Source of the DNA: Marivita sp. GX14005
Lineage (GTDB): Bacteria > Pseudomonadota > Alphaproteobacteria > Rhodobacterales > Rhodobacteraceae
Assembly: GCF_023370775.1 (NCBI RefSeq)
Contig: NZ_JAMCCQ010000001.1
Location: 1-64,000, forward strand
Length of the DNA stretch: 64,000 bases
Direction of reading: 5' to 3'
Below are positions 43,180-64,000 of this stretch, piece after piece (within the stretch, counting starts at the first letter, position 1; the number at the start of each line of letters is the position of its first letter). Made by a program: the position numbers and the translations under genes. The notes beneath the pieces are model-generated. The model was not told where the DNA came from and ran no database searches. It saw only the letters and a program-made list of their open reading frames with translations.

Positions 43180-43253
43180 GGCGAGTTGGCGGAGTGGTGA
43201 CGCAGCGGATTGCAAATCCGTGTACACCGGTTCGATTCCGGTACTCGCCTCCA
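43180..43253 (+). tRNA. tRNA-Cys(GCA), island integration target
   Basis: A 74-nt cloverleaf with encoded CCA. The acceptor stem GGCGAGT pairs perfectly with ACTCGCC, discriminator T; the anticodon stem-loop is GCGGA-TTGCAAA-TCCGT with anticodon GCA; the T-arm is ACCGG-TTCGATT-CCGGT. The tyrosine recombinase gene starts its 3' end just 62 bp beyond the CCA, which marks this tRNA as the attachment target. Confidence 0.96.
43228..43253. other. Presumed attL at the tRNA-Cys 3' end
   Basis: Integrases encoded beside a tRNA usually recombine within the T-arm/acceptor 3' part, leaving that segment duplicated at the other island end. No second copy of this 3' segment was found in the rest of the window, so the exact core cannot be set and attR is probably beyond 64000. 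Boundaries are inferred. Confidence 0.45.
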
Positions 43254-43315: not shown

Positions 43316-44401
43316 TTACAGTTTTGTTCCATTTTCGGTCTTCTGGGCGGCTTCCAGCGCCCGTTTGACGCGGTCGGTTTCGTCCTCGGAAATCACCGCA
43401 TAATGCTCGATCACCTGGCTCGCGTAGCGAATGCTCCAGCCCATGTACGACGCGATGTCATTCAGCCCAAGTCCGGCCTCCAGAAGTCGCGTCGCTGCCG
43501 TGCCCCTCGCGTCGTAAAGCCGAAGGTCGAACCCCTTGGCGTCCGGTGCCAACTCTGGAATGCGATTGCGCCACCGGCTCACCGCCTTTGAAGCGCTTTC
43601 AGCGTCGAGCTTCTGCCCCTTGTCCCCCACGAGAATGAGCATCCGGTCGGGCGGCGTCGCATCCAGAAGTGCCCCGAGCTTCTGGGACACAGGAATCGTC
43701 GCGATCTTACTGCGCTTGTTTGTGCGCACCCGTAGCCTGCGGCCATGCCGCGTCTTGCGGATATGCCCACGGTTGAGGCCCGCCAAATCACCGGGTCGCA
43801 ACCCTGTTTCACAGGCGCAAATCAGAATGCGGCGGGCATATTCCGGAGCAGCTTGGCAGAAAAGATCAACATCGGCAGGAGTCCAGACGATCTCAGCCCG
43901 GTCAGACTCATAGACCTTTGGCAGCTTGTGACAGAAGTGGCGACTGATCTTGCCGTTGTCCTCGGCCCAGTTCAGGAAACGTGTGACCACCGTCCCGCAA
44001 TAGTCGAACTGCTTGGGGGAGTGCGCCCATTGTTGCCGCCAGTCAGATACCTCTCCGCGCGATTCTGGCTCGGCGAACATGGCAAATGGATCTTCCGCAA
44101 ACTCCTCCTGAAATCGCAGCATCCATTTCTTGTAGTCGCTCTGCGTGCGGGGTTTCGTTTTTAGGAACTCAGCGGAGTCCAGAAACTGGTCCACAACCGA
44201 CTTCGTCAGCAAGCGCGGCTCAGCCAATCGAGTTGAACAGGCCGCAAAAGCAGAAATGTATTCAGGACTATGCTTCGAAAAGTTCAAGTCGCTTGACCAG
44301 AAACAAGGGCCGCCACGCCAAGCATAGTGGCGCTCCCGATACAGCCCGCTCACAAGCTTTCTTCTGACACGATGGACACCTTTCAGCTCAACCTTGACCA
44401 C
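43316..44401 (-). CDS. Tyrosine recombinase / integrase
   Basis: Length is 361 aa: an N-terminal DNA-binding part, a SAM-like core-binding domain (about residues 65-165) and a C-terminal catalytic domain. Catalytic residues visible are Arg202 (ETGLRPGD), a Lys near 229 (TNKRSK), Arg299 (YDARGTAAT) and the nucleophile Tyr334 (IEHYAVI). The usual HxxR histidine is replaced by Tyr296, a variation seen in some phage-type integrases. Transcription runs toward the tRNA. Its start overlaps the preceding small gene by 14 bp. Confidence 0.9.
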   Translation of the reverse strand: MVKVELKGVHRVRRKLVSGLYRERHYAWRGGPCFWSSDLNFSKHSPEYISAFAACSTRLAEPRLLTKSVVDQFLDSAEFLKTKPRTQSDYKKWMLRFQEEFAEDPFAMFAEPESRGEVSDWRQQWAHSPKQFDYCGTVVTRFLNWAEDNGKISRHFCHKLPKVYESDRAEIVWTPADVDLFCQAAPEYARRILICACETGLRPGDLAGLNRGHIRKTRHGRRLRVRTNKRSKIATIPVSQKLGALLDATPPDRMLILVGDKGQKLDAESASKAVSRWRNRIPELAPDAKGFDLRLYDARGTAATRLLEAGLGLNDIASYMGWSIRYASQVIEHYAVISEDETDRVKRALEAAQKTENGTKL

Positions 44402-45659: not shown

Positions 45660-48600
45660 CTAACGCTTTTCTCGATGCCCAAGACTTCCCATGATGACCT
45701 CGATCTCATTCTGAAGATGCGATCCCCGATAGACGATGGAGGTCTCGTGTCGGGCGTACTGTCCCTTTCGATCGGCACTGAGCCAGTTGTATGAGCCGAT
45801 GCAGAGAAGGGAAGAGTCTGCAACGACGATCTTGCTGTGCAATTGGCGCACTTCGTGTACGCATACGCCAACATCATTGAGCACAGACTTCGTGACCTCC
45901 AACTGGCTTCGGCCTTGGCCGTCCAATTTCTGATTCAGCAGAGGGTCGGCAAACACGTCCACCTCGGCCCCGCGGGCCACAGCCTTGCGGAAGCCATCCA
46001 GCAGACCAGCACGTTTCATGGTTGATGCGATCACCCATGGGCTCACAATGGTCAACTGCCGCGCATCCGACGACAAAACATCGAGAAGAAATCTATCATG
46101 CTCGGCCGAGTCGCGCAGAGTCATCAAAGGCTGGTCAGCCGCTTGCAGATCGGCACGAGGCTGGGCTTCATAGTCAAGAGCCCGGCCAGCTGCTGAACAT
46201 AGATTGTCCGCCAGAATTCCACGAGGCGTCCCTTTCGCAGCTGCGGAAATGACATCCATGTCACCAAAGACCAAGAAACAATCTTTGGCGCGGGACACCG
46301 TCACGTTCAGCATGCTCGGTGACATATCGATAAACTGGCCGTCCGAATGCTTGGAGTAGACGGGAGAGAAGATCACGATGGGGCGCTCGGCTCCCTGCAA
46401 TGAATGGACCGTCCCGACTGTCATTCTGCTATCGAGACCACGTTCGGCACAGGCCGCTTTGATTTCTCGCACCTGACGGCCAAACGGCGTGACAACGCCA
46501 ACGATATCAGCGAGCCGTTTCCCGTATTGGTCTTCCAGTGATTTCTGATTTGAAGCGAGCCAGTCGGCAATCGTGGCCGCTTCCGTCGCATTTGCCCTGC
46601 TGCCGCCAAAACTCACCGCTCTGCCGTCTATGTGCAGATATCCCATGGCCGGGCGCTCGCCGTCATCCGGCGCGTTGCCACGTAAGGGCCGGAGTGCTCC
46701 GTTGTAGCAAAGCGTATTACTGAAACCGATTATCTCATCATAGCAGCGCCGATGCTCAAAGAGGTATAGGCCACGTTCCAAATCCGGATAGGGTTCATAA
46801 GGGCAAGCCTCTTGAGCTAGCCGCATCGCACTGCCATCCGTGCTGCGAATACCCCGGTTTGAGACGGCCACAAGATCAGCTTCCGAATATACATCGGGCA
46901 GAAGACCACAGCCTTGCAGATTGCCGATATCAACCGAGCTGGAGACTGACGATATAGGTTCGATCTGCTGCGTATCCCCGATTACCAGCGCGCGCTTCGC
47001 TAACGCGAAAGACGGTGCGGCCACCTCGGGCAGAACCTGCCCGGCTTCATCGACTATCAGAAGATCGATAAAGCCTAGCAAGTAACCTTCACCCTGTGGT
47101 CGCCAGAACTTCATTTTACCGGGCAGGCTGGCAAATGTGGATACGGCGCAAGGAGTCAGCATCATGCGGCGACGCCAGCGAGGCTCGACATCGCTCCGTG
47201 TAGTTTTCCAGTTATCTTCGACAATTGCTTCCAAATCCGCTTCCATTTCAAGAAGCCAGCGTCCTTCCCAATAATGACTGGCAAGTCGGAACAGTTGGAA
47301 CCGTGAGGTGACATCCGCAAGCTGGTCGAAGGTCAGTGCGTCGGTGATATGCGGTGGCGGTGCCCCGAGTTGATCAGTTGCTTCCTGCCATGCCTGATTT
47401 GCTGCCTTAAGATCGGCGTGCGCCGACCGAGCTTGTTCAAGCTTAGCTTGAGCAGAACGCGAGCGCTCAGCGGCGTTGCCTATATCGGCTCTCAATGCCG
47501 ATTCGATGTCAGAAACAGATGAATCATACCCAAAATCGAGCGTGCAGCCGACTTCCTGAAGCGCCATACGAGCCTTTGCAGCGCGTTTGCGCGCGACAGG
47601 GGGTAGGAAACTGAAGAGGGACAGAACGGAGGATTCACCGGCTTGATGCCGAGTCCAAGCCACATCCCATGCTTTACACTTATCGTGCTCAGCAGATATC
47701 CGTTTCGCGTCATCCTCGAACCGTGACAACGCAGTCTCAGGATTGTCCCCAAGAAGGCTCCGAACCTTCTCAGAAAGGGCAGCAAGGCGGACTCTGGCAT
47801 CGTCGATATCCGATAGTTTTGCGGCCTCGTGCACGATCAATTCGTGCAACCGAGAGACGATATCTTCCACGCCGGGGGTGTCGATCTCTGGAAACGCCCG
47901 ATGCCCGGCGTCGACATAGGCCGCCTTGGCGCGCTCAAAATAATCCTCGGTTTCAAGTTCGAGATAGAAGCGCTCGGTCTGGTAGCGCTTCGATGCGCCT
48001 TCATTTTCTTGCTTTTGAGAGGCCAAAAACATCCCATAGCTGTTTAAGTCTGGTAGCCAGCGCCCCGCAAATGGCCCTTCGCCTCTAGCGAAATCCTTGC
48101 CGAAAGCATCGATGATATTGGTTACTGCTTGGTTGTTGGTCGAGGCTGCCACAATGATGGGAGGCTCTGCTTTCTCCAGAGCGGCGCGCACCCAAGCATC
48201 TGCAATCGCCGAAAGTAGCATCGTCGTCTTGCCAGTCCCTGGCGGACCATTGACGGCCAGCACATCGCCAAGCTGCCCTGTTGAAAGATAGGAGAGAACC
48301 TGACGTTGATGATCCGCAAGCGGATACTGATCATTCGAGTGCCCCAAACGATTAATGAAGTTCGTCTCGGTTTCTTCCGAAAGTGCGATTGTCTTGGCAG
48401 GCGGGCAGGCAACTTTCTCCAAGAGTGGCGAAGAGGGCTTATGGCTCAACAATGTGTCGTAGAGTTTGATGATCTGGGCAATGGTGGCTGCCGCGTCACC
48501 GGCAACTTCCATAAAGCCAATACCCGCAGGCGCGTAGCCCGCACCTTTGGTAGGCCATCCGGGCGCGACGGCATCTACCATGCTACGGCAATGGTCGAGA

Positions 48601-49070
48601 TATTGAGGCCAGATCGCTCTACTTTCATCGAGTTTGAGCGGTGTTGCCGATAGAAAGCGGTCGAAATCCTCAACAGAGCCCATCGAGAACTCATCGTTTG
48701 GCAGTGGTGTCAGCACATCTCTGGCGATAACATTGCGAGATGGGAGAATAGCCCCCGACCTGTCCACTGTCGCCTCGGTAACAACGGGGGCCACAATTTC
48801 CGGCATACCATTGAAAACCGTCGTCCCGTGTGAGGTCATTCGGGATGTCACCATAGGCCAGATTTTCACCGAAACAATTTCTGCGTCCGGCTTCTGATCT
48901 GCGAACACTTGTCGAACTTGGTTTTGGGGGAGGCTGCCGTTTCGCAATGTGTCGGTCGTCAGCTCAATAAAGCTCTTTCGATCCTTCTGCCGGAAACGCC
49001 CTCGCCCGAGAGCCCCATCGGCCAACGAAGAACGCCAGTAACGCAGAACATCGTAAAAGTTGGGAACCAT
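45660..49070 (-). CDS. SF1 helicase (AAA/UvrD-like Upf1-Dna2 type) fused to PLD nuclease
   Basis: Length is 1136 aa. Residues 1-240 are unassigned. Walker A is GPPGTGKTT at 275-283, the Walker B/motif II is IVDEAGQVLPE around 672-682 with GDTQQIEP (motif III) after it, and the C-terminal helicase core has VGTVHSLQGAERPIVIF (885-901) and NVTVSRAKDCFLVFGD (922-937). A coiled insertion fills about 430-570. A single phospholipase-D HKD motif closes the protein: H1078-x-K1080, D1085 and G1092-S-x-N1095. One HKD per chain implies a dimer. The make-up suggests a nucleic-acid translocase that delivers a nuclease, plausible as a stand-alone antiphage gene. Function is inferred from architecture and island context. 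Confidence 0.85.
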   Translation of the reverse strand: MVPNFYDVLRYWRSSLADGALGRGRFRQKDRKSFIELTTDTLRNGSLPQNQVRQVFADQKPDAEIVSVKIWPMVTSRMTSHGTTVFNGMPEIVAPVVTEATVDRSGAILPSRNVIARDVLTPLPNDEFSMGSVEDFDRFLSATPLKLDESRAIWPQYLDHCRSMVDAVAPGWPTKGAGYAPAGIGFMEVAGDAAATIAQIIKLYDTLLSHKPSSPLLEKVACPPAKTIALSEETETNFINRLGHSNDQYPLADHQRQVLSYLSTGQLGDVLAVNGPPGTGKTTMLLSAIADAWVRAALEKAEPPIIVAASTNNQAVTNIIDAFGKDFARGEGPFAGRWLPDLNSYGMFLASQKQENEGASKRYQTERFYLELETEDYFERAKAAYVDAGHRAFPEIDTPGVEDIVSRLHELIVHEAAKLSDIDDARVRLAALSEKVRSLLGDNPETALSRFEDDAKRISAEHDKCKAWDVAWTRHQAGESSVLSLFSFLPPVARKRAAKARMALQEVGCTLDFGYDSSVSDIESALRADIGNAAERSRSAQAKLEQARSAHADLKAANQAWQEATDQLGAPPPHITDALTFDQLADVTSRFQLFRLASHYWEGRWLLEMEADLEAIVEDNWKTTRSDVEPRWRRRMMLTPCAVSTFASLPGKMKFWRPQGEGYLLGFIDLLIVDEAGQVLPEVAAPSFALAKRALVIGDTQQIEPISSVSSSVDIGNLQGCGLLPDVYSEADLVAVSNRGIRSTDGSAMRLAQEACPYEPYPDLERGLYLFEHRRCYDEIIGFSNTLCYNGALRPLRGNAPDDGERPAMGYLHIDGRAVSFGGSRANATEAATIADWLASNQKSLEDQYGKRLADIVGVVTPFGRQVREIKAACAERGLDSRMTVGTVHSLQGAERPIVIFSPVYSKHSDGQFIDMSPSMLNVTVSRAKDCFLVFGDMDVISAAAKGTPRGILADNLCSAAGRALDYEAQPRADLQAADQPLMTLRDSAEHDRFLLDVLSSDARQLTIVSPWVIASTMKRAGLLDGFRKAVARGAEVDVFADPLLNQKLDGQGRSQLEVTKSVLNDVGVCVHEVRQLHSKIVVADSSLLCIGSYNWLSADRKGQYARHETSIVYRGSHLQNEIEVIMGSLGHREKR

Positions 49071-49106: not shown

Positions 49107-49652
49107 TCATCTGATGCGGGAAACCGTTGACCGGGACACCCCGAGTAAACGCGCAATTTCGGCATTGTCCTGTCCTTCCAAACGCAGTTTGAGGACCGCG
49201 TTGCGCTGGTGAGACGTGAGCTTGGGTGGACGACCAAGCCGTTTCCCCGCTCGCCTCGCCCGTTCGCGCCCCTCAGCGGTCCGCTCGGCAATCAAAGACC
49301 GCTCGAATTCCGCCAACCCTCCCAGAACGGTGAGAATGAGTTTGCCTGTGGGTGTTGTGGTGTCTGCCCATGAATCTACAAGCGACTTTAACTTCGCACC
49401 GTTGGTTTCGATCGTGTGGACAATATCCAGAAGATCGCGCGTCGATCGCGCGAGCCGATCAAGTCGCGTCACAACGAGCACATCCCCTTCCGCGAGAGTT
49501 GCGAGCGCGCTTATCAACTCCGGTCGGGCGCGCTGCGCCCCACTCATTGTTTCACTGAATATCGAGGCACACCCAGCTGCACGAAGCTGCTCAAGCTGTG
49601 CATCAAGGGTCTGACCAGTAGTGGAAACGCGCGCATAGCCAATCAATTTCAT
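49107..49652 (-). CDS. Serine recombinase (resolvase/invertase family)
   Basis: Length is 181 aa from MKLIGYARVSTTGQTLDAQL. The nucleophile Ser is in YARVST, with DVLVVTRLDRLARST and the long E helix (GGLAEFERSLIAERTAEGRERARRAGKRLGRPPKL). A C-terminal HTH ends NAEIARLLGVSRSTVSRI, the Hin/Tn3-resolvase layout and length. A GTG five codons upstream is an alternative start. No transposase accompanies it. It sits between the AIPR and helicase-PLD genes on the same strand, with palindromic DNA next to its start. Confidence 0.92.
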   Translation of the reverse strand: MKLIGYARVSTTGQTLDAQLEQLRAAGCASIFSETMSGAQRARPELISALATLAEGDVLVVTRLDRLARSTRDLLDIVHTIETNGAKLKSLVDSWADTTTPTGKLILTVLGGLAEFERSLIAERTAEGRERARRAGKRLGRPPKLTSHQRNAVLKLRLEGQDNAEIARLLGVSRSTVSRIR

Positions 49653-49714
49653 GCCTTCTTTATGCACGCAACTTTCGCACGGCCCAAGTGGTTGATTTCA
49701 TATAGGCGCCTCCG

Positions 49715-49745: not shown

Positions 49746-51425
49746 TCACGAAACGGCTAGGAGATCAAAGAAGTCCGTCTGCTTGGCGCTGATCTCACCA
49801 AGAATACGTTCTTTCGTTCGTGGACTGCGGAACATTTGGTAATGAGCAACCGCTTTCTGTTGGCTGCAAGCTGCTGCAACTCGCCGAATGGCCTCTTCCA
49901 CCAATTCGAGCGCTGCATCACCTTCGGGCAACTCTGGCTTTTGCGATTTCACATGAAGGAGCTTGCAAGCGAAGAGAATAAACCATTGTCCATAAACGAG
50001 GTACTGGTGCTCATGTCCGCTCTCTGGTGAGGAACCAAACTTTGCTTGGTATGCGTCGCGAAGCTCTTCAATGATCCCGTAAAGCCGATAGAGCTTGATC
50101 AACTCGTCGATGTTCTGACGGCTCCCAAATACCTGCTGGAAGCGGGCATCGAAAATCGAATCCGATTCAGTCTTGGCGCGATCCGGCTCTCTGAGATCAA
50201 ACGACAAGATGATTTGGCCCAGCTTCAGGGCGTCAATCCTCTTGTCGTCTGGTTGATCTGAGTGCATATTCTTCTTCCGCTCGAAGAAGTAGCCCTTTTC
50301 CTTGAACGCAAGCTCCAGCTTCTTCAGGATTTCATGGTTCGACATGAGATCACGGCTTTGAATCCGCGCTTGGCTGTTGGTCGCAACAGCCACCCTTTCC
50401 GCGATATCTGACCGATCCGTTGCATACATGCGCACCATCACGACGACATCAGACAGCGCCTCCGGATCGGTGCGGGCGGCTTCCACCAACGAGTGCGAGG
50501 TTTGCGCACCGTTGACGATCTGAAAGTCCTTGAAGACCAATTTCGGGTTGGTGTGGCCCTTGTTGTATGAAAAGCTCTTGCAGGTGATCGTGACGCCATT
50601 GTTCAGGTACCAAAACAGGTAGCTATCGTTTGATGTGGCCGTCGAGATAATCGCCTGATTGAAGCCACCCTTGGCCCCGAGAAACACTCGCAGATTGTCA
50701 TCAAACAGGTGGCGTTTGATTGTTTCGCCGTCGTCTTCCGTGATCAACTCGACAAAGGACATTGCGTCAATCGACGCAATCGCCCCTCGAACATCGCCGT
50801 CCGAACGCTCAAGGATTTCACGGCCAATAACCTGTAGCTGACCATCCTCGCGGGCACGCCCTTCGCCAGCCATGGCTTGAACAACACTATGCCCGCCGTA
50901 GAACTCAAATGAAACCGACGTATGCGATGCCTTTATGGTCTCGATGATGCCCAATGCAGAGGTCGAGAAGCCTTCACCGTTCGAACAGAAAATGGCCTTG
51001 TAGCGGCAGATTTTACCTTTGTCGTGGAATTCCCAGATCCGGCGAACAGCTTCTTGAAGTCGGAAGTTTCCGCTATTTGCCAATCCATCTGACTTCTCAA
51101 ACAACTCGTTGAGAAAAAGGGAAACTTTCAGAATCTCGGTGTCATTGATCGTCTTGTGACAAGTGCTTTGGCTCTCCCGATATTTCGACTGGAACAGGAA
51201 AACTTCGGCGCTGCTTTCGCTTTCGATGATGTGAATCGCATCGATCCCCCTATCATCGGGGCCATCGGTGATGATCTCTTGCAACTGGTCATCGTGGCCG
51301 GGAAAAATCTGGCCGAGAACGATAGCAAGAAAGCCTACCGTTTTCTTGGGGAACTGGTGCCTTTCGCAAGTCTTCGACACCCTTGCGTCGATGATGTCCC
51401 AATCCATCTTTGAAATCGGCTTCAT
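49746..51425 (-). CDS. AIPR-family (abortive infection phage resistance) protein with Mrr-like nuclease motif
   Basis: Length is 559 aa. The AIPR domain (PF10592-like) is recognisable at about residues 235-420: FLGAKGGFNQAIISTATS, FWYLNNGVTITCKSF, FQIVNGAQTSHSLVEA and RVAVATNSQARIQSRDLMSN. The N-terminal 100 residues contain GIDAIHI with Asp62 and FLFQSKY with Gln79-x-Lys81, matching a PD-(D/E)xK nuclease of the Mrr type. It lies 62 bp downstream of the type ISP restriction-modification gene on the same strand, so it may belong to that locus. The named activity is inferred from the family; the sequence does not show the target. Confidence 0.85.
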   Translation of the reverse strand: MKPISKMDWDIIDARVSKTCERHQFPKKTVGFLAIVLGQIFPGHDDQLQEIITDGPDDRGIDAIHIIESESSAEVFLFQSKYRESQSTCHKTINDTEILKVSLFLNELFEKSDGLANSGNFRLQEAVRRIWEFHDKGKICRYKAIFCSNGEGFSTSALGIIETIKASHTSVSFEFYGGHSVVQAMAGEGRAREDGQLQVIGREILERSDGDVRGAIASIDAMSFVELITEDDGETIKRHLFDDNLRVFLGAKGGFNQAIISTATSNDSYLFWYLNNGVTITCKSFSYNKGHTNPKLVFKDFQIVNGAQTSHSLVEAARTDPEALSDVVVMVRMYATDRSDIAERVAVATNSQARIQSRDLMSNHEILKKLELAFKEKGYFFERKKNMHSDQPDDKRIDALKLGQIILSFDLREPDRAKTESDSIFDARFQQVFGSRQNIDELIKLYRLYGIIEELRDAYQAKFGSSPESGHEHQYLVYGQWFILFACKLLHVKSQKPELPEGDAALELVEEAIRRVAAACSQQKAVAHYQMFRSPRTKERILGEISAKQTDFFDLLAVS

Positions 51426-51487: not shown

Positions 51488-54400
51488 TCATGCATCAATC
51501 TCCAACTTCGGCAGCCCCCGCACGATCTCCATCGTCCGCAGGCTGACCGTGATCACGCGCTGGAACAATTCCAGCGGATAGGCGGGGTTGCCGACGGTCT
51601 CGACGGCGTAACGGTTGGTGTCGTTGACGATGTCGCTGCCTTTCTTGGTCTTGGGGTTGTTGCTGTCCTTCAGCACGGCCTGCCGTTCCATCACCCATTC
51701 CAGCGCGGGCTTGCCGTTGACGACATAATCATAGGCCGCCAGCGGAATATCCTGCATGGTGATGTTGGCGTTGTAGATCACCGTCGATTTGTCGAGGTTC
51801 GGGCGCTTGCCCGCGTGCTTCATCTTGGTGACGCGGTAGAAGGCCTGCGGATCGTCGATGACCCAAGTGTCGGGATGGCCCTGCTTGAAGGTGACGGGGT
51901 AGGGTTCGACCGTCTCGTAGCCCACATGCAGATCGGCCAGATCGCGGCCCGCCTGCGCGAAGGCGCGGAAATCCTCGACCTTCTTCACGCAAGGGATGCG
52001 GGGCAATTCCTTGGTCAGGTTATCGGCGTAGCGGGCGCGATATTCCTCGGAATGCAGAAGGCCATAGGTATAATAGAAGACATCCTCGCGCGTGATCTGC
52101 TGGCCCGGATAGGCCGCTTGGAAATGGCGCAGGCCTGCGTCGGTGATGCCATCTCGGCGGGCGGCATGATCCGCGCCCGAAAACAGGTCATCCGCGCCGG
52201 TATCAGCATCGTCGTAGATGTAGAGCGGGAAGCATTGCGAACCGCTCATATCAGCGGCGTGAAGGCTTGGGATACAATCCGTCATCAGCGCAGAAACCGA
52301 TCCGCGCGCGCCGGGGCTCGACATGGCGATCACGCGGTTGGGACTGTCGGCATCGGGGAACAGGCGCGGGATCTGATAAACCATCTCGTTCAGGCGGCGG
52401 CTGAAATACAACCACTCCTTCCCGAACGGGCGATAGATCGACGGCACGAACTGGCCATCCTCGATCGACAAGGGTTTGCCACGGCCATGATCCGCCAAAA
52501 GCGCCCGTGTCCAGCTTACCTGCCTCGGATCACCCAACAGTTTCGGCGCTGGCTGGCCTGCATCCTGCGCCTGCCGTGCCTTGGCCAGCTCATCATTGTA
52601 GGTGTCGATCATCGCCCCAATGTTGCGCTCAAGATCAGCGCGAGAGCGGTTGTAGCACCACGCATCCCGCTGGGTTTTGACCCCTGCGGAATAGGTCTCG
52701 AACAATGTCTCGGCGGTCTTGTCCTTCTTGTCCCCGATCTTGATGAACTGATCGAAAGACGCATCCCGCTGGTTCAACCAATCCCCGTGTTCGTCGGGTT
52801 CGATCTGGGTCCAGCCATCGGCTTCGGCAATGCCGCGTGTTGAGCCGAAGTCGCGAATGATCGCCAGCTTTTCCTTTTCTTCAAGGTAGTCGCCAATGTC
52901 ACGGTAATGGATGCGGCCGCAATGTGCGGCATCGGGATTGCGGACCAGAACCGAGATCGCAACAGGGGTGCGCGTGCCCGCGCCAAAGACATTGCCCTTT
53001 TCCTTGCGACGGCGTTCGCCGGTCAGGTGCGCATCCCCTCGCAAATTGAAGATGTAGAGGTCGGAAAATTCTTTGGCGAAGCTCTTGCGTACGCCGGTTG
53101 TGGCGTTCCCGTCCAGCCAACCGCCATTGGTCACGAAGGCTACAACGCCGCCGTCATCGCCGATCCGGTCACTAGCCCAGCGAAAGGCGCGCAGGTAGCT
53201 GTTGTAAAGGCCGTTCTTGTTCTGCGCATCGGTCAGTGCGGCATAGGTGTCGCGGATGCGGCCATCCAGCGTCGGGTAGTCCACATTGGCATTGTCGTCA
53301 TTGGCGCTGTCCTGCCCCTTGGAATAGGGCGGATTGCCAAGGATCACGCGGATATCTGTCGCCTTCTGCCGTTTGCGCCGCTCCGAGTTGTCGGGCATGT
53401 AGTGCGAGATCAGATCATCGCTTTCATACATCTGGAAGGTGTCGGTCAGGCAGATACCCTCAAACGGCACATATTCCCCGCCCTGAAGCCCATGATATAC
53501 CGCCTCGATGTTGATCGCGGCAATGTAATAGGCAAGCAGCACGATCTCGTTGGCGTGGATCTCGTGGCGGAATTTATGCTCCATCTCCTCGGGCGCGATC
53601 AGCCCCGACTGCAAGAGCCGCGTGACGAAGGTACCCGTGCCGGTGAAAGGGTCCATGATATGCACGCCCTCAGATCCCAGCGTCTGGCCAAACTCGGCTT
53701 GCAGCACATCGTTGACCGAATGGATGATGAAATCGACGATCTCGGGCGGTGTATAGACGATGCCAAACTTATCGGTGGTGCGCGTGAAGGCCTTTTTGAA
53801 AAACTTCTCGTAGAGTTCCTTGATCAGATTCTGTTTCGCCGCCGGATCGGTGATGCCTTGGGCACGGCGCTGCACATCGGCATAGAATTTGTCGAGATCT
53901 TCGGATTCCTTGTCGAGATTGGCTTCGTCCAAGACATCCAGAACCCGCTGCATGGCGCGGGAAACGGGGTTTTCGGAAGTGAACTGGTGGCCCTCGAACA
54001 AGGTCTGGAAGACGGGTCGCGTGATGAGATGTTGTGCCAACATCTCAATGGCATCTTCGCGAGACACGCTTTCATTCAGATCGTCCTGAAGCTCTTCGAG
54101 GAAGGCGGCGAACGCTTCACTCGCACGGGTGTCAGGCGCGTCCAATAGACTTTTCAGGCGTGTGATGTGGTTACTGGCAATCTCGGCAATGTTGCCCGCC
54201 CAGTCCTCCCAATAGTCGCGGGTTCCGCATTTCTTGACGATCTTCGCCATGATCGCGCGTGAGAATTCATCGACTGAGAAAAACATTTCGCCCTGCACCG
54301 GACCTGTTGCCACAGGATCGCGTCCCGGTGAGCCAATGCTGGCGGTTGCAGGTTGCGATCGCGTTGGCAGATCTTCAACAACGGCCGTCACCGCAGCCAG

Positions 54401-56017
54401 TTCGGCACTTTGCGACGCAGTGATACCAACGATTTCAACCTTGTGGCTGATATCCTGGCCCAGAGAGGCTTGGTTGATCGTGGCCCCCATTCCGTCTTCG
54501 TCATGGGCACGCAAGGCGTTCAGAATCTGCCAGACGACGCGATATTTATCGTTGTCGGCAAGAGCTTCTTCCGGTGTCTTGCCGTGCGGGATACCAACCG
54601 GCAGAATGACATAGCCCATTTTCTTAGTATCGGTCTTTCGCATGACCCGACCGACCGATTGCACGACATCAATTTGGCTTTTGCGCGGGTGCAAGAACAT
54701 GATCGCATCTAGTGCTGGCACGTCCACGCCTTCTGACAGGCAACGCGCATTGGTCAGGACACGGCAAGTATGATCGGGCGTATCAGCTTTTAGCCAATCG
54801 AGCAGGCGACCGCGATCCTTGGCATTGAATGTGCCATCGACATGCTCGATCTCGCAACGCAGGCGGTCATCTTCGTCAGCATCATCCAGAACAGCATCGT
54901 CCCCGAGGAACTCATCAACGACAGCGGAGAATTCGGTTTCGATTAGTTTTGAGCTTTTGATGTCCTTGCAAAAGGCCAATGCGCGGCGCATCGGATGCGG
55001 ATCGGTGGAAACATCGGCCTGCAAATCGGCTTTAGTCAGCGCCTTGTAACATCCCACGATCTTGGTGGCATCGTCGAGCCGCAGCTCGCTTCCGCCATCC
55101 ATCAAACGCTTTTGCACGCTATCCGAAACTAGCTGCTCATCCATGGCCAGCACGATGACCTTGTAGTCCGTCAGCAAGTTGTTCTGCACCGCCCATGAGA
55201 ATCCGCGATAAAAAAACGTTTCCCCAAACAGATCCGGCCGATCCATCGAGCACAGTTCAGCACCGACATCGTCAGCTTTGGACTTGGCGTTCTCACCGAA
55301 AATCCGAGGCGTCGCGGTCATGTAAAGGCGTTTCTTGCCCCGGATGACGCTGTTGTCGTGAACCTTGACGAAATTAGAATCGTCTTCGCCCACCAACGTG
55401 ACGCCGGTTGTCCGGTGCGCCTCGTCACAAACGATGAGATCGAATTCTGGAAGCCCGTGATCGCGCTGGGCGTCAGCGATAACCTGAATCGACTGATAGG
55501 TCGCAAAAACAACCGTCATCTTGTCGGAGGCGGGATGCAACACCCCCTCGGCAAGCTTGCGCGGATCCGTTGTCGCGGGGAATGCAAGATCAAGCACGTC
55601 GATCTCGGCAACGTCATCAACTCCGACGCGCCTCTTGCCAACCTGCGTATCCGAGCAAACGGCAAAGGATCTTAGCGGCGTTTCCGTGTCCGCCGTCCAT
55701 TCCCGAACGGTCTGTGCCATCAACGCCAAGGAAGGCACTAGGAACAAAACCTGCGCACCCATCCCCGCCAAATCTTCCGCTATTTTGAGGCTGGTGAAGG
55801 TTTTACCTGTCCCACAAGCCATGATCAGCTTGCCTCGATCCGCGTCTGTCAACCCGACGCGAACATCGCGAACCGCTTCCTCTTGATGCGGACGCAAGCG
55901 CTTTTTGTCGGCCAGAACGACCTTGCCTTGATCACCGAAGTGCTCCCAAATTATCGGGCTTTCTTGCAGATCATTCAGACCGATGCGGATAGTCGGAATG
56001 ATCTGGCCACGGATCAT
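51488..56017 (-). CDS. Type ISP restriction-modification polypeptide, helicase-methyltransferase part
   Basis: From the internal ATG at 56017, 1509 aa remain: an SF2 translocase (Walker A GTGKT 69-73, DEAH 198-201, RVMRKTDTKK motif VI region), a helical coupler, an N6-adenine methyltransferase with SAM motif DPFTGTGTF (~788) and catalytic NPPY (~893), and a C-terminal target-recognition region. This is the LlaGI/LlaBIII-like single-polypeptide layout. No strong ribosome site precedes 56017. The true gene begins at 56395, but a stop at codon 41 interrupts it, so this product would keep ATPase and methylation parts without the nuclease. Whether it is translated is unknown. Confidence 0.8.
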   Translation of the reverse strand: MIRGQIIPTIRIGLNDLQESPIIWEHFGDQGKVVLADKKRLRPHQEEAVRDVRVGLTDADRGKLIMACGTGKTFTSLKIAEDLAGMGAQVLFLVPSLALMAQTVREWTADTETPLRSFAVCSDTQVGKRRVGVDDVAEIDVLDLAFPATTDPRKLAEGVLHPASDKMTVVFATYQSIQVIADAQRDHGLPEFDLIVCDEAHRTTGVTLVGEDDSNFVKVHDNSVIRGKKRLYMTATPRIFGENAKSKADDVGAELCSMDRPDLFGETFFYRGFSWAVQNNLLTDYKVIVLAMDEQLVSDSVQKRLMDGGSELRLDDATKIVGCYKALTKADLQADVSTDPHPMRRALAFCKDIKSSKLIETEFSAVVDEFLGDDAVLDDADEDDRLRCEIEHVDGTFNAKDRGRLLDWLKADTPDHTCRVLTNARCLSEGVDVPALDAIMFLHPRKSQIDVVQSVGRVMRKTDTKKMGYVILPVGIPHGKTPEEALADNDKYRVVWQILNALRAHDEDGMGATINQASLGQDISHKVEIVGITASQSAELAAVTAVVEDLPTRSQPATASIGSPGRDPVATGPVQGEMFFSVDEFSRAIMAKIVKKCGTRDYWEDWAGNIAEIASNHITRLKSLLDAPDTRASEAFAAFLEELQDDLNESVSREDAIEMLAQHLITRPVFQTLFEGHQFTSENPVSRAMQRVLDVLDEANLDKESEDLDKFYADVQRRAQGITDPAAKQNLIKELYEKFFKKAFTRTTDKFGIVYTPPEIVDFIIHSVNDVLQAEFGQTLGSEGVHIMDPFTGTGTFVTRLLQSGLIAPEEMEHKFRHEIHANEIVLLAYYIAAINIEAVYHGLQGGEYVPFEGICLTDTFQMYESDDLISHYMPDNSERRKRQKATDIRVILGNPPYSKGQDSANDDNANVDYPTLDGRIRDTYAALTDAQNKNGLYNSYLRAFRWASDRIGDDGGVVAFVTNGGWLDGNATTGVRKSFAKEFSDLYIFNLRGDAHLTGERRRKEKGNVFGAGTRTPVAISVLVRNPDAAHCGRIHYRDIGDYLEEKEKLAIIRDFGSTRGIAEADGWTQIEPDEHGDWLNQRDASFDQFIKIGDKKDKTAETLFETYSAGVKTQRDAWCYNRSRADLERNIGAMIDTYNDELAKARQAQDAGQPAPKLLGDPRQVSWTRALLADHGRGKPLSIEDGQFVPSIYRPFGKEWLYFSRRLNEMVYQIPRLFPDADSPNRVIAMSSPGARGSVSALMTDCIPSLHAADMSGSQCFPLYIYDDADTGADDLFSGADHAARRDGITDAGLRHFQAAYPGQQITREDVFYYTYGLLHSEEYRARYADNLTKELPRIPCVKKVEDFRAFAQAGRDLADLHVGYETVEPYPVTFKQGHPDTWVIDDPQAFYRVTKMKHAGKRPNLDKSTVIYNANITMQDIPLAAYDYVVNGKPALEWVMERQAVLKDSNNPKTKKGSDIVNDTNRYAVETVGNPAYPLELFQRVITVSLRTMEIVRGLPKLEIDA

Positions 56018-59628: not shown

Positions 59629-59650
59629 GGTGCGAAAGCACTATCGCACC
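59629..59650. promoter_or_regulatory. Copy C: palindrome before the metallophosphoesterase gene
   Basis: GGTGCGA-aagcacta-TCGCACC is an inverted repeat with 7-bp arms, sharing the core with copies A and B. It sits about 22 bp upstream of the gene start, just after a -10-like TTAATAA stretch, in the normal place for a repressor operator. Confidence 0.5.
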
Positions 59651-59671
59651 AACGCACTACGGAGGCGTGTG

Positions 59672-60475
59672 ATGGCGCGATTTCTGGTCTGGAGCGACCT
59701 GCATGACGAATTTTGGGGCGGCTTCGATTTGCCCGACCTGTCCGCGCCGGTGGATGGGGTTCTGATCGCTGGCGATACGCACACGCTGGGACGACATCTG
59801 GAGATCCCTGCGCAGGCCGCGCGCAAATATGGCTGCCCGGTCGTAGTGATCTGGGGAAACCATGAGCCCTATGGCACGGTCTGGTCGGAACTGCTGGCCG
59901 AGGAGAAGCACCAGCTTGCAGCTTTGCGCGGCGAAGGACTCGATATCCGCGTGCTGCATGGTGCGGCCACCGAAATCGCGGGCGTGCGCATCATCGGCGC
60001 GACGCTCTGGACGGACCTGCAACTCTCCCCCGAGTTCGACGACCTCGCGCGGATCATGGTCTCGGCCTACATGCAGGACTACCGCGCCATTCGCACCGCG
60101 CCCGACACCTGCTTTACCATCGACGACATGCTGGATCGCCACGCGCAGGACAAGGATGCAATCCTCGCCGCCCTGCGCACCCCGCACGACGGCCCGACCG
60201 TGGTCATGACCCACCACCTGCCGCTGCGCGAACTGATCACCCCGTGGCGCACCATCGGCGGCCATGAGAAGCTCGCTATGAACAACGGGTTCGCCAGCGA
60301 CCTCTGGGATGAGATCCGGGGCTTCGACATCGACACATGGATCTGGGGCCACAGCCATGAGGGGGAGAGCCGGGCGATCAAAGGCGACCACGGCCCGATC
60401 CGATTTGTCACGAACCAACGGGGGTATCCGGTGGAGGGGAATGAGTTCGATCCTGCCTTTGTGCTTGAGGACTGA
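59672..60475 (+). CDS. Metallophosphoesterase (calcineurin-like)
   Basis: Length is 267 aa from ATG 59672 with GGAGG 6 bases upstream. Metal-binding motifs are in order: SDLHD (Asp9, His11), AGDTH (Asp35), WGNHE (Asn63, His64), MTHHLP and WGHSHEG. That is the full calcineurin-like set for a dinuclear metal enzyme. The substrate is unknown; it may act on nucleotides or nucleic acid. It is flanked by operator-like repeats C (upstream) and B (downstream), so it may be controlled with the following DUF559 gene. Confidence 0.85.
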   Translation: MARFLVWSDLHDEFWGGFDLPDLSAPVDGVLIAGDTHTLGRHLEIPAQAARKYGCPVVVIWGNHEPYGTVWSELLAEEKHQLAALRGEGLDIRVLHGAATEIAGVRIIGATLWTDLQLSPEFDDLARIMVSAYMQDYRAIRTAPDTCFTIDDMLDRHAQDKDAILAALRTPHDGPTVVMTHHLPLRELITPWRTIGGHEKLAMNNGFASDLWDEIRGFDIDTWIWGHSHEGESRAIKGDHGPIRFVTNQRGYPVEGNEFDPAFVLED

Positions 60476-60484
60476 CCGTAGCGG

Positions 60485-60511
60485 GATAGGGCGATAGTGC
60501 TATCGCACTAT
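60485..60511. promoter_or_regulatory. Copy B: two interlocked palindromes before the DUF559 gene
   Basis: GCGATAG-tg-CTATCGC (60491-60506) overlaps ATAGTGC-tatc-GCACTAT (60494-60511), so the same bases make two perfect inverted repeats. The 16-mer beginning at 60485 is identical to copy A. It lies about 110 bp upstream of the next gene's preferred start. Confidence 0.5.
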
Positions 60512-60619
60512 TGGGCTGTGACTAAACATAACCCTTTGATCTTCTTAATAATGACACAAAGCCAAAGCCTATGTCATCCTAACTGTAACCTTCATTTCAC
60601 TGAAAGAAATGCCTCTACG

Positions 60620-61528
60620 ATGAACCTTCCCTTTCGTATTTTGGCGACATTTCTTTGCTTCTTGCTGGGCTTTATCTTTCCTTTCAGTTTTGCGCTCGCG
60701 GCCCTCATTGCGTGGTCCATCTATGAGGACATCACTGATCCAAGTTCAAAGGAGCCACCCAGACCCAGCAAGCTGGAAACGCTGACCACAGACGACGAGG
60801 ACTGGCACCGATATTTCCAGCATGCTTGCGAATCTCCGGCGGAAGTCGCCTTTCTCGACGCGATGGTCGCAGCCTTTAACCTTACGCCTGAAAAAGGCCG
60901 CTTGCGCGGCAGCGGGTTGACCTTGCAGATGCAGGTGCCGGTCATGAATTACCGCCTCGATTTCCTGATCGACGACGGCCTGATCGTCGAGGTCGATGGC
61001 GCAAAATGGCATTCCTCGCCCGAAGCTATCGAGCGCGATGCCGAACGAGACAAAGCGCTTGCTGCGAAAGGATATGAAATCCTGCGCATTCCCGCAAAAG
61101 TCACGCTTTACAAGCCCGAAGCCGCCATCAAGCAGGTTCGCCAAGCGCGTTCAAACTGGCTGGCCGGCAAAGCTCAGGCGCGCGCCAGCCGCGCGCAAGG
61201 GTCGGATGGAATGATTGCCGATCACAAGCAGCTCACGCATGTGCCCAAATTTGGCATATCGGGTCTCGTAGCCTCCGTGGAAAATGGTCTCGACAGCTTC
61301 ACCGCAAGCATGAACAACATCAGCACGGAACTAAGACAGTTCAATGAGCGCGCGGAAAAATGGGCTGAAGAAGATCGCAAGCGCGTGGCCAACAAAGCTG
61401 AAGATCGTAGGCGGCGGCTTAAAGATGAGTTGGATGCGGATCCGGAGGCCCGAAAAATCTATGACCAGTTGATGTTAAAAATGGAGGGTAGAAAAAAGGA
61501 GCGAGAGCAAAAGCGGAACTCGCGCTGA
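60620..61528 (+). CDS. Membrane-anchored DUF559 endonuclease-domain protein
   Basis: Length is 302 aa from [20 protein letters not shown]; the first ~33 residues form one or two TM segments. Residues ~60-165 are DUF559/Vsr-like: a core with Asp114 in [17 protein letters not shown], then Glu124 and Asp126, and [29 protein letters not shown]. The C-terminal 80 residues are a highly charged helix ([26 protein letters not shown]). Possible starts exist upstream (60497, 60554), but the first overlaps repeat B. An endonuclease tethered to the membrane is unusual. Confidence 0.72.
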
Positions 61529-62307: not shown

Positions 62308-63183
62308 CTATGCCACCCGGCGCAGGGTCACAGGCCATTCGATCTCATAGGCGGCGATCCCTGCGCGCTGTGCAGCCTCACGCACCGGCGCTGATATGCG
62401 CTCGGCGATCAGCACACCTTCCAGCTTCCCGAAAGCAAATTCGTCCTGCTGACCAAGCGCCAGCAGATAGTCCTCGACCTGTCGCACAGCACCCACATTG
62501 GCCTCGGCCCGCTTGATCTCGACCACCAGCCAGTCACCCGATTGCAGATCCTGCGCCAACACGTCGATCCGGCGGGAATTCAGCCCGCCATCCACGGGGT
62601 ATTCGTCCTGTACGACAACATGGCGCTTAGCGAACGGCGTTTCCGACCATTGGTTCAGGATTGCCCGTTGAATCTCGTATTCAGTAGCAAATCCAGCATG
62701 GCTGCGCTCAGCGCGCCCCAAATCGAGAACCCGATGGTCGAACCCGCGCAAGGCCGCAAGGGTTGGCAAGACATGCTCGCGCGAAACGACCAGATGCCCA
62801 GCCCCTTTGTTGCGCTTCTCAAAGGTGAAGGGCAGCCCCAGCTTCACGAACTGTTCGTGGTATTTTCCGTTGAATACCCCATGGCCGAAATCACCACTCG
62901 CGGGCCGAATCGTGTCTATGGCCAAGGCCCATTGCTGATGCTCTGAAGGTGAGAACGCCAAATAGACAACGCCGCGCCGGTTCGGCCAGCGCGCATTGCG
63001 GCGCGGATGATCGGTGCGGATCATCCAGTTCAGGCCCGCCACCATTGCCGCCCCTACAAGCTCGATCACGGGAGCGGACAGGCACCAATCGCGCGCCACA
63101 TAAGCCTCCTCCCCCTGCCGAACGAGAAGCCCTTCCACAATCTCTTCCAGCACGATCCCGTTGAGAAATTCGAGCTTGGTCAT
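62308..63183 (-). CDS. PD-(D/E)xK nuclease-domain protein coupled to HipA gene
   Basis: Length is 291 aa. The C-terminal ~130 residues carry a NucS/RecB-like nuclease: Glu168/170 in TEYEIQ, Asp207 in SRRIDVLA, Glu222-x-Lys224 in VVEIKRAE and Gln235-xxx-Tyr239 in QVEDYL (the QxxxY motif). Residues 1-150 are a separate unknown domain beginning MTKLEFLNGIVLEEIVEG. The start overlaps the hipA stop by 4 bp (ATGA), so the two proteins are translated together. A nuclease as third partner of a HipA kinase is not a standard arrangement. Confidence 0.75.
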   Translation of the reverse strand: MTKLEFLNGIVLEEIVEGLLVRQGEEAYVARDWCLSAPVIELVGAAMVAGLNWMIRTDHPRRNARWPNRRGVVYLAFSPSEHQQWALAIDTIRPASGDFGHGVFNGKYHEQFVKLGLPFTFEKRNKGAGHLVVSREHVLPTLAALRGFDHRVLDLGRAERSHAGFATEYEIQRAILNQWSETPFAKRHVVVQDEYPVDGGLNSRRIDVLAQDLQSGDWLVVEIKRAEANVGAVRQVEDYLLALGQQDEFAFGKLEGVLIAERISAPVREAAQRAGIAAYEIEWPVTLRRVA

Positions 63184-64000
63184 TCCGCGCCCCTCCCCTC
63201 CTCGACAATGAAGGATGCCGCGCGTTGTCTGACACCTTCTGCGATGATCTGCGTCAAAGCCATGGGGAAGTCCGGGGGCATACGCTCAACCGTTTTCTCA
63301 ATGGCAGGCTCAATTCGTTTCGCGATCTCCGCTAGCACCTCTTCCGCCAGCGCCACACCGAACCCCGCTACCTTGGCCGCTTGCAGGAAATGGCGCGGCA
63401 CGACCTCATTGATCCGATAGTGCCCGCCCACTGACATGGCGAGGCGCATCCTGTTCTTGCGGATCTGACCCTCATCCACAGCCTTCTGCGCGCTCAACAC
63501 ATCGTAGAGCGGCGTCATACGGAAGCCGCCGGGGCGAAGCGCGATGCTGAAATTCTTGGCGTGACCGTCCGTCGCTCCTAGGAGCCAGAACAACATCTGA
63601 GCTTGAAAGAAGGCGCGCTGATCGGCCAGCGCGTCATCGCTGCCCGCCAGCAGGCCAATGCCCTCGGTTATCCCCGGCCCGCCATCCATCTGGTATTTTT
63701 GACTGGGCGGCACCGAAAGCGCCTGACAGAAATCCTCCTGCGGCAGGCGGATCAGCCGCCCGTCTGCGGTCCAGCGCCGGTCAAACCGCGTGACAACAAG
63801 GCTGCGCACATTCTCAAAATCGACGATTTCAACCTCCGCCACATCCGCCCCCATCACGCGGCAAAAGGTCATGCAGAAGAACTCGTTCTCGACGCTGTCC
63901 GACAGGTTGATCCCGTTCGGAAGCACGCCGAGCTGCGTTTTCAGGATATGGGTCGTGGGCGTCAGGCCCGAGGGTCGTATCCATTCACCATCGTGGCGCA
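63180..64000 (-). CDS. HipA-like serine/threonine kinase toxin, 5' end outside window
   Basis: At least 273 aa are present; the gene continues beyond 64000. The visible portion includes the HipA substrate loop region (WIRPSGLTPTTHILKTQLG), DFCQALSVPPSQKYQMDGGPG, the catalytic loop LLGATDGHAKNFSIAL and MTPLYDVLSAQ with the metal-binding Asp, and the family's C-terminal helical lobe. HipA kinases phosphorylate aminoacyl-tRNA synthetases and are normally neutralised by HipB. A hipB gene, if present, lies to the right of the window. The 3' end overlaps a nuclease gene. Confidence 0.85.
   Translation of the reverse strand, partial: RHDGEWIRPSGLTPTTHILKTQLGVLPNGINLSDSVENEFFCMTFCRVMGADVAEVEIVDFENVRSLVVTRFDRRWTADGRLIRLPQEDFCQALSVPPSQKYQMDGGPGITEGIGLLAGSDDALADQRAFFQAQMLFWLLGATDGHAKNFSIALRPGGFRMTPLYDVLSAQKAVDEGQIRKNRMRLAMSVGGHYRINEVVPRHFLQAAKVAGFGVALAEEVLAEIAKRIEPAIEKTVERMPPDFPMALTQIIAEGVRQRAASFIVEEGRGAE

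Follow-up and report, generated by a model that had tools for sequence, protein, structure and literature searches.

Genomic Context

The window, meaning the whole stretch of DNA analyzed here, comprises 64,000 nucleotides of Marivita sp. GX14005 (contig NZ_JAMCCQ010000001.1, positions 1 to 64,000). Its right-hand part is occupied by an island that begins within a tRNA-Cys gene (43180–43253) and carries an open reading frame (ORF) for a large helicase-nuclease, assigned below to mkoC. The main features are as follows.

43206–43253 (+): left end of the island, the 48-bp 3′ part of tRNA-Cys (exact repeat)
43206–64000 (no strand): portion of the island inside the window (48-bp direct repeat, integrase, lower GC)
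43316–44401 (−): tyrosine recombinase (integrase) adjoining tRNA-Cys (Pfam Phage_integrase, E 6.3e-11)
45660–49070 (−): mkoC, SF1 helicase-PLD protein assigned to Mokosh type II (ATG ORF, 1136 aa, PADLOC MkoC)

The last 48 bases of tRNA-Cys recur exactly beyond the window, at contig C1:67059–67106 (L074:3059–3106). On the basis of this direct repeat, the adjoining integrase, and a lower GC content, an island of ~23.9 kb is inferred, extending to about contig position 67058. GC per kilobase is 0.62–0.66 from 38 to 43 kb, mostly 0.51–0.62 inside the island, and 0.68 at 67 kb; a dip (0.515 at 96 kb) also occurs in the chromosome past the island. Four of the 16 further genus genomes (G430, G582, G575, and G576) have a second, partial tRNA-Cys 5–22 kb from the full copy. 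Integrases 49% identical to that of the window are found beside tRNA-Cys in G430 and beside the partial copy in G576, and the corresponding stretches of G582 and G575 gave no match to the window integrase at 1e-6. No direct empty island site was seen in the genus, where the left flank is separated from tRNA-Cys; on the right side of the site, alignment is confined to the tRNA part and at most three further bases. The island looks like mobile DNA inserted at a tRNA gene.

Seventeen island ORFs were scanned in at least one model library (mkoC included, one ORF spanning the right end, small ORFs set aside). A serine recombinase of 186 aa (Resolvase and HTH_7 domains; 49107–49667, −) lies between mkoC and a gene for an AIPR protein, in the same orientation. 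The AIPR protein (49746–51425, −) aligns with almost the whole of the PADLOC model AbiU (profile positions 6–535 of 537, 219.5 bits), and its gene is a second known gene of the abortive-infection type on the island. The next ORF (51488–56017, −) encodes a type ISP enzyme, and an in-frame stop at about 56.27 kb is present upstream of its listed start at 56017. This ORF lacks the first ~126 model positions (the enzyme model aligns from position 127), and the missing N-terminal part is presumably the nuclease domain; the stop may be a sequencing error. Farther along the island, a metallophosphatase adjoins a restriction endonuclease of the MTES_1575 type (59630–61528, +), and a NucS_C protein adjoins an ORF with weak similarity (19 bits) to PDC-M03A (62308–63926, −); both pairs are possible further defense genes. 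An earlier sequence-only reading of this DNA had named an AIPR protein, a type ISP system, a resolvase, and an integrase as neighbors in a defense island. All four are real according to Pfam, and the presence of other defense-type genes on the island is supported.

Protein Architecture and Conservation

A search of the window's genome gave no second match to the mkoC ORF, which has no internal stops. Its product can be divided into an N-terminal region, an SF1 helicase, and a C-terminal phospholipase D (PLD)-like domain, with the following parts.

48351–49070 (−): N-terminal region, residues 1–240, conserved in the family and within the MkoC profile
48222–48251 (−): helicase motif I (Walker A), residues 274–283, invariant in 17 of 17 rows
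47040–47051 (−): helicase motif II (DEAG), residues 674–677, invariant in 17 of 17 rows
46281–46298 (−): helicase motif VI (VSRAKD), residues 925–930 (alignment of 17 rows)
45693–46034 (−): PLD-like domain, residues 1013–1126 (Pfam PLDc_2, PADLOC MkoB)
45786–45839 (−): single HKD motif, residues 1078–1095 (alignment of 17 rows)

In Pfam, the helicase matches AAA_12 (residues 773–938, E 5.1e-18) and AAA_11 (E 4.6e-11), and the C-terminal domain matches PLDc_2 (residues 1013–1126, E 1.8e-6) at 28.2 bits, barely over the cut-off of 27. By sequence, the helicase is akin to UPF1, SMUBP-2, DNA2, and SEN1, with about 350 residues separating motif Ia from motif II.

Conservation was assessed in an alignment of 17 rows, the window protein and 16 relatives at 42–67% identity that share its length and architecture. 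The rows are not independent, because two of them (L004 and L011, from the same genome by position) are identical in sequence and the whole set falls into ten groups at 85% identity. In this alignment 293 of 1136 positions are invariant, among them every residue of the Walker A sequence GPPGTGKTT (residues 275–283) in all 17 rows, that is, in ten groups at 85% identity. Within motif VI, S926, R927, A928, and D930 are invariant in 17 of 17 rows, and V925 and K929 vary. The PLD motif reads H1078-S-K1080-x4-D1085-x6-G1092-S-x-N1095; H1078, K1080, G1092, S1093, and N1095 are invariant across the 17 rows, and the aspartate of the HKD is replaced by glycine in a single relative (L039). The PLD domain holds one HKD. 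The pattern also occurs at residue 462 of the window protein, where no relative has it, and this occurrence is read as chance. The sequence-only reading had described one 1136-aa chain with SF1 motifs (Walker A at 275–283, DEAG at 674–677, VSRAKD) and an intact single-HKD PLD motif at 1078–1095. The helicase motifs were confirmed at exactly these residues, and the PLD motif both in the ORF and in the alignment.

That reading had also left the N-terminal 240 residues without an assignment, and the searches agree: residues 1–240 gave no Pfam match up to E 0.1, and the profile of the N-terminal region gave no match to solved structures up to E 10 in a sequence-based comparison. The PLD domain alone, compared with solved structures, gave nothing meaningful (best E 0.4).

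Relationship to Known Defense Systems

The window protein matches the PADLOC MkoC model (PDLC03924) over its full length with 1239.3 bits (profile positions 6–1134 of 1136), and model and protein have the same length, 1136 positions and 1136 aa. The second-ranking PADLOC model is MkoA, on the C-terminal part of the helicase (residues 822–954, 103.6 bits), and MkoB matches the PLD motif region (residues 1054–1118, 48.5 bits, protein E 2e-13); all three models are matched by each of the five members of alignment A1. Among the matches listed for 394 genomes of the family, eight full-length, uninterrupted members score 1210–1239 bits, and the highest-scoring likely non-member (G215) reaches 234 bits over residues 244–963 only. 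At E 0.001 the MkoC model matches 123 of 394 family genomes and ten of 14 control genomes, mostly via the helicase part among the matches listed; because this threshold alone is unspecific, membership is based on the full-length score. In NCBIfam (2026), no Mokosh model is among the matches of the window protein, the best being PLuB_AAA, whose 61.8 bits fall far below its cut-off of 999.

The account of Mokosh in PMC11672841 gives the system as a COG1112 RNA helicase domain plus a PLD nuclease, which type I splits between different genes and type II unites in a single gene, mkoC, with the helicase N-terminal and the PLD domain C-terminal. Both types are listed with a PLD-like domain in a section of PMC10952713, and MkoA and MkoC are included among SF1/SF2 defense helicases in the part of PMC12278908 that covers them. 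The window protein follows the type II plan, one gene with an SF1 helicase and then a C-terminal PLD domain, and the comparison with the model and the published description revealed no feature that distinguishes it. The view that no named system has this domain order is therefore wrong: the PADLOC search that the sequence-only reading had proposed identified the whole protein, N-terminal region included, as MkoC (profile 6–1134 of 1136), and the description of mkoC in PMC11672841 prints the same order. The window gene belongs to an already known, named anti-phage system, and with the PADLOC model rather than the tested MkoC as reference, it is very probably mkoC of Mokosh type II.

The breadth of that model has some bearing on the assignment. 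In the Bacillus cereus group, as reported in an excerpt of PMC11811056, Mokosh is found in 93.8% of genomes, mostly as type II, and DefenseFinder, one exception apart, made none of the type II calls of PADLOC. This disagreement suggests that the PADLOC type II models may be wide, and it slightly lowers our confidence in the MkoC reading; by the PADLOC calls, type II is moreover common rather than sporadic in that group. The window protein could accordingly belong to a distinct helicase-PLD defense family that the MkoC model covers and whose function is unlike that of tested Mokosh type II; the conflict between the two programs, the lack of a Pfam family or solved relative for residues 1–240, and the low identity (40–43%) of gammaproteobacterial relatives (H27–H30) are all in keeping with such a family. 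We consider this improbable, since the model aligns end to end at 1239 bits, N-terminal region included, with MkoA and MkoB ranking next, and since relatives at 42–67% identity keep both length and architecture.

Several other systems share components with the window protein. Mokosh type I resembles it in that the C-terminal part of the window helicase matches MkoA and the PLD motif region of the window protein matches MkoB. Type I, however, has separate genes and a serine-threonine kinase domain in the description given by PMC11672841, whereas the window has one gene; no kinase model is among the matches of the window protein (Pfam, PADLOC, and NCBIfam). Type I was rejected because the MkoA and MkoB parts both lie within one ORF. 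Nhi and Hhe are likewise helicase-bearing defense proteins, with weak local matches to the window protein (PADLOC Hhe 17.3 bits and Nhi 16.5 bits; NCBIfam Hhe 23.7 bits), and were rejected because these matches span only about 40–52 helicase residues at 16–24 bits. DrmC of DISARM is a separate protein within a multi-gene system; its PLD domain shows weak similarity to that of the window protein (24 bits, PADLOC). A PLD domain is among the DISARM parts named in a portion of PMC12926258. DISARM was rejected because the match is weak and local and no other DISARM gene is among the listed matches of the island ORFs scanned.

Neighborhood and Distribution

The surroundings of mkoC were surveyed at 20 loci, the window included, with flanks of about 0.3–12 kb. 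The comparison, by blastp at 1e-10, took in 277 ORFs, each 110 aa or longer; L004 and L066 are near-copies within this set. Only mkoC is common to all 20 loci, and the next family occurs in four, its members sharing 26–33% identity with the one at locus L057. The window integrase, resolvase, AIPR, and type ISP proteins and two small ORFs were also searched against the other loci (tblastn at 1e-6; six stretches from the genome of the window were set aside). The integrase alone gave matches, which lie around tRNA-Cys in G430 and G576, and both genomes are without mkoC; the serine recombinase has no relative in the other MkoC neighborhoods compared. The gene had been proposed to stand alone, and this holds: mkoC has no conserved partner gene, with neighbor families at no more than four of 20 loci, and so fits a single-gene system.

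The same survey bears on a resemblance to CoCoNuT. In the account of PMC11090510, CnuH of that system belongs to the UPF1-like SF1 helicases and carries a helical insertion that follows its Walker A motif; type III-C has a PLD effector. The window protein would then be a helicase of the CnuH kind, belonging to a type IV restriction system (CoCoNuT) whose other components are encoded nearby, and the interval of about 350 residues between its motifs Ia and II recalls the large insertion of CnuH, as its PLD domain recalls the type III-C effector (CnuE). The PLD domains are arranged differently, however: in the window protein a PLD domain with one HKD is fused to the helicase, whereas CoCoNuT III-C has two PLD domains on a wHTH protein. 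No McrB or McrC model is among the listed matches of the 17 island ORFs scanned, for which reason a CoCoNuT helicase was rejected, and neighbor families are each confined to at most four of 20 loci; this origin appears extremely improbable.

Full-length, uninterrupted mkoC was found in eight of 394 family genomes (among the matches listed), nine of 292 order genomes, and one of 17 genus genomes, the window's own genome being counted each time; the family and order samples overlap, and two candidates per genome were scored in each. Four other genus genomes match through the helicase only (58.9 bits or less), and at least seven further family genomes (G270, G206, G071, G083, G386, G266, and G374) have copies that are interrupted or incomplete, some of them where a contig ends. 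Relatives are also plasmid-borne: 754 plasmid records match, 41 of them with at least 80% of the query covered, and the hosts among the matches listed (30 of 754) are Yoonia, Rhizobium, Neorhizobium, Agrobacterium, Pseudomonas, Arsenophonus, and Salmonella. The gammaproteobacterial relatives mentioned above, at 40–43% identity, are of this kind. Among viral sequences, the gene is carried by one IMG/VR contig, and six of 50,697 phage records match; in one of these the match spans 80% or more of the query and has 34% identity. Occurrence of mkoC is thus sporadic in the genomes sampled.

UPF1/DNA2-like helicases function in DNA repair and in the decay of RNA, and the sequence relatives of the MkoC helicase are of this type, so a housekeeping helicase-nuclease of DNA repair or RNA turnover has to be weighed. 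A frequency of 93.8%, as given for Mokosh in the Bacillus cereus group in the excerpt of PMC11811056, would suit such a role, but full-length copies in one of 17 genus, eight of 394 family, and nine of 292 order genomes would not, and the same can be said of the gene's location, an island in the window and plasmids in other bacteria, and of the broken or incomplete copies that at least seven further family genomes contain. Given the sporadic occurrence in the genomes sampled, a housekeeping role was rejected as very improbable. The sequence-only reading had named a predominance of housekeeping homologs as speaking against defense, and no such predominance is seen in the family, order, and genus genomes sampled. 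The locus as a whole is very likely explained by MkoC, the single protein of Mokosh type II, carried as cargo of the tRNA-Cys island.

Proposed Mechanism and Significance

UPF1-like helicases travel on RNA or single-stranded DNA, and single-HKD PLD nucleases work as dimers. The Mokosh tested by Millman and colleagues in 2022 reportedly protects against phage and needs the active sites of both helicase and PLD domain. Most likely, the helicase of MkoC would bind phage-derived RNA or single-stranded DNA and use ATP to move along it. Two MkoC molecules would join their C-terminal PLD domains, each with its single HKD, into one active site, and this site would cut the nucleic acid held by the helicase; the cut may be limited to phage nucleic acid or may also kill the cell. 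Dimerization through the HKD, cleavage of nucleic acid, and phage as the trigger are all inferred for MkoC, and the choice between RNA and DNA as target is suggested by its relatives. Taken as a whole, this mechanism, with the helicase acting on phage nucleic acid and a dimeric PLD site making the cut, seems to us somewhat better than an even prospect. Mokosh degrades foreign viral transcripts according to a statement in PMC11291487, which cites others for it, and its mechanism is given as unknown in the relevant part of PMC12926258.

The N-terminal region is not peculiar to the window copy, since the alignment with the MkoC profile starts at profile position 6. Residues ~1–240 could form a recognition domain, novel in fold, that distinguishes the RNA or DNA of the phage from that of the host, an idea we regard as doubtful.

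With PADLOC already modeling this gene, one candidate new system is struck off, and what the window offers is useful context, a tRNA-Cys island on which mkoC is accompanied by an AIPR gene resembling AbiU and by a type ISP gene. The MkoC alignment also flags conserved N-terminal residues relevant to what Mokosh recognizes; if the N-terminal region does prove to be a recognition domain, Mokosh type II would combine sensor, motor, and nuclease in one protein.
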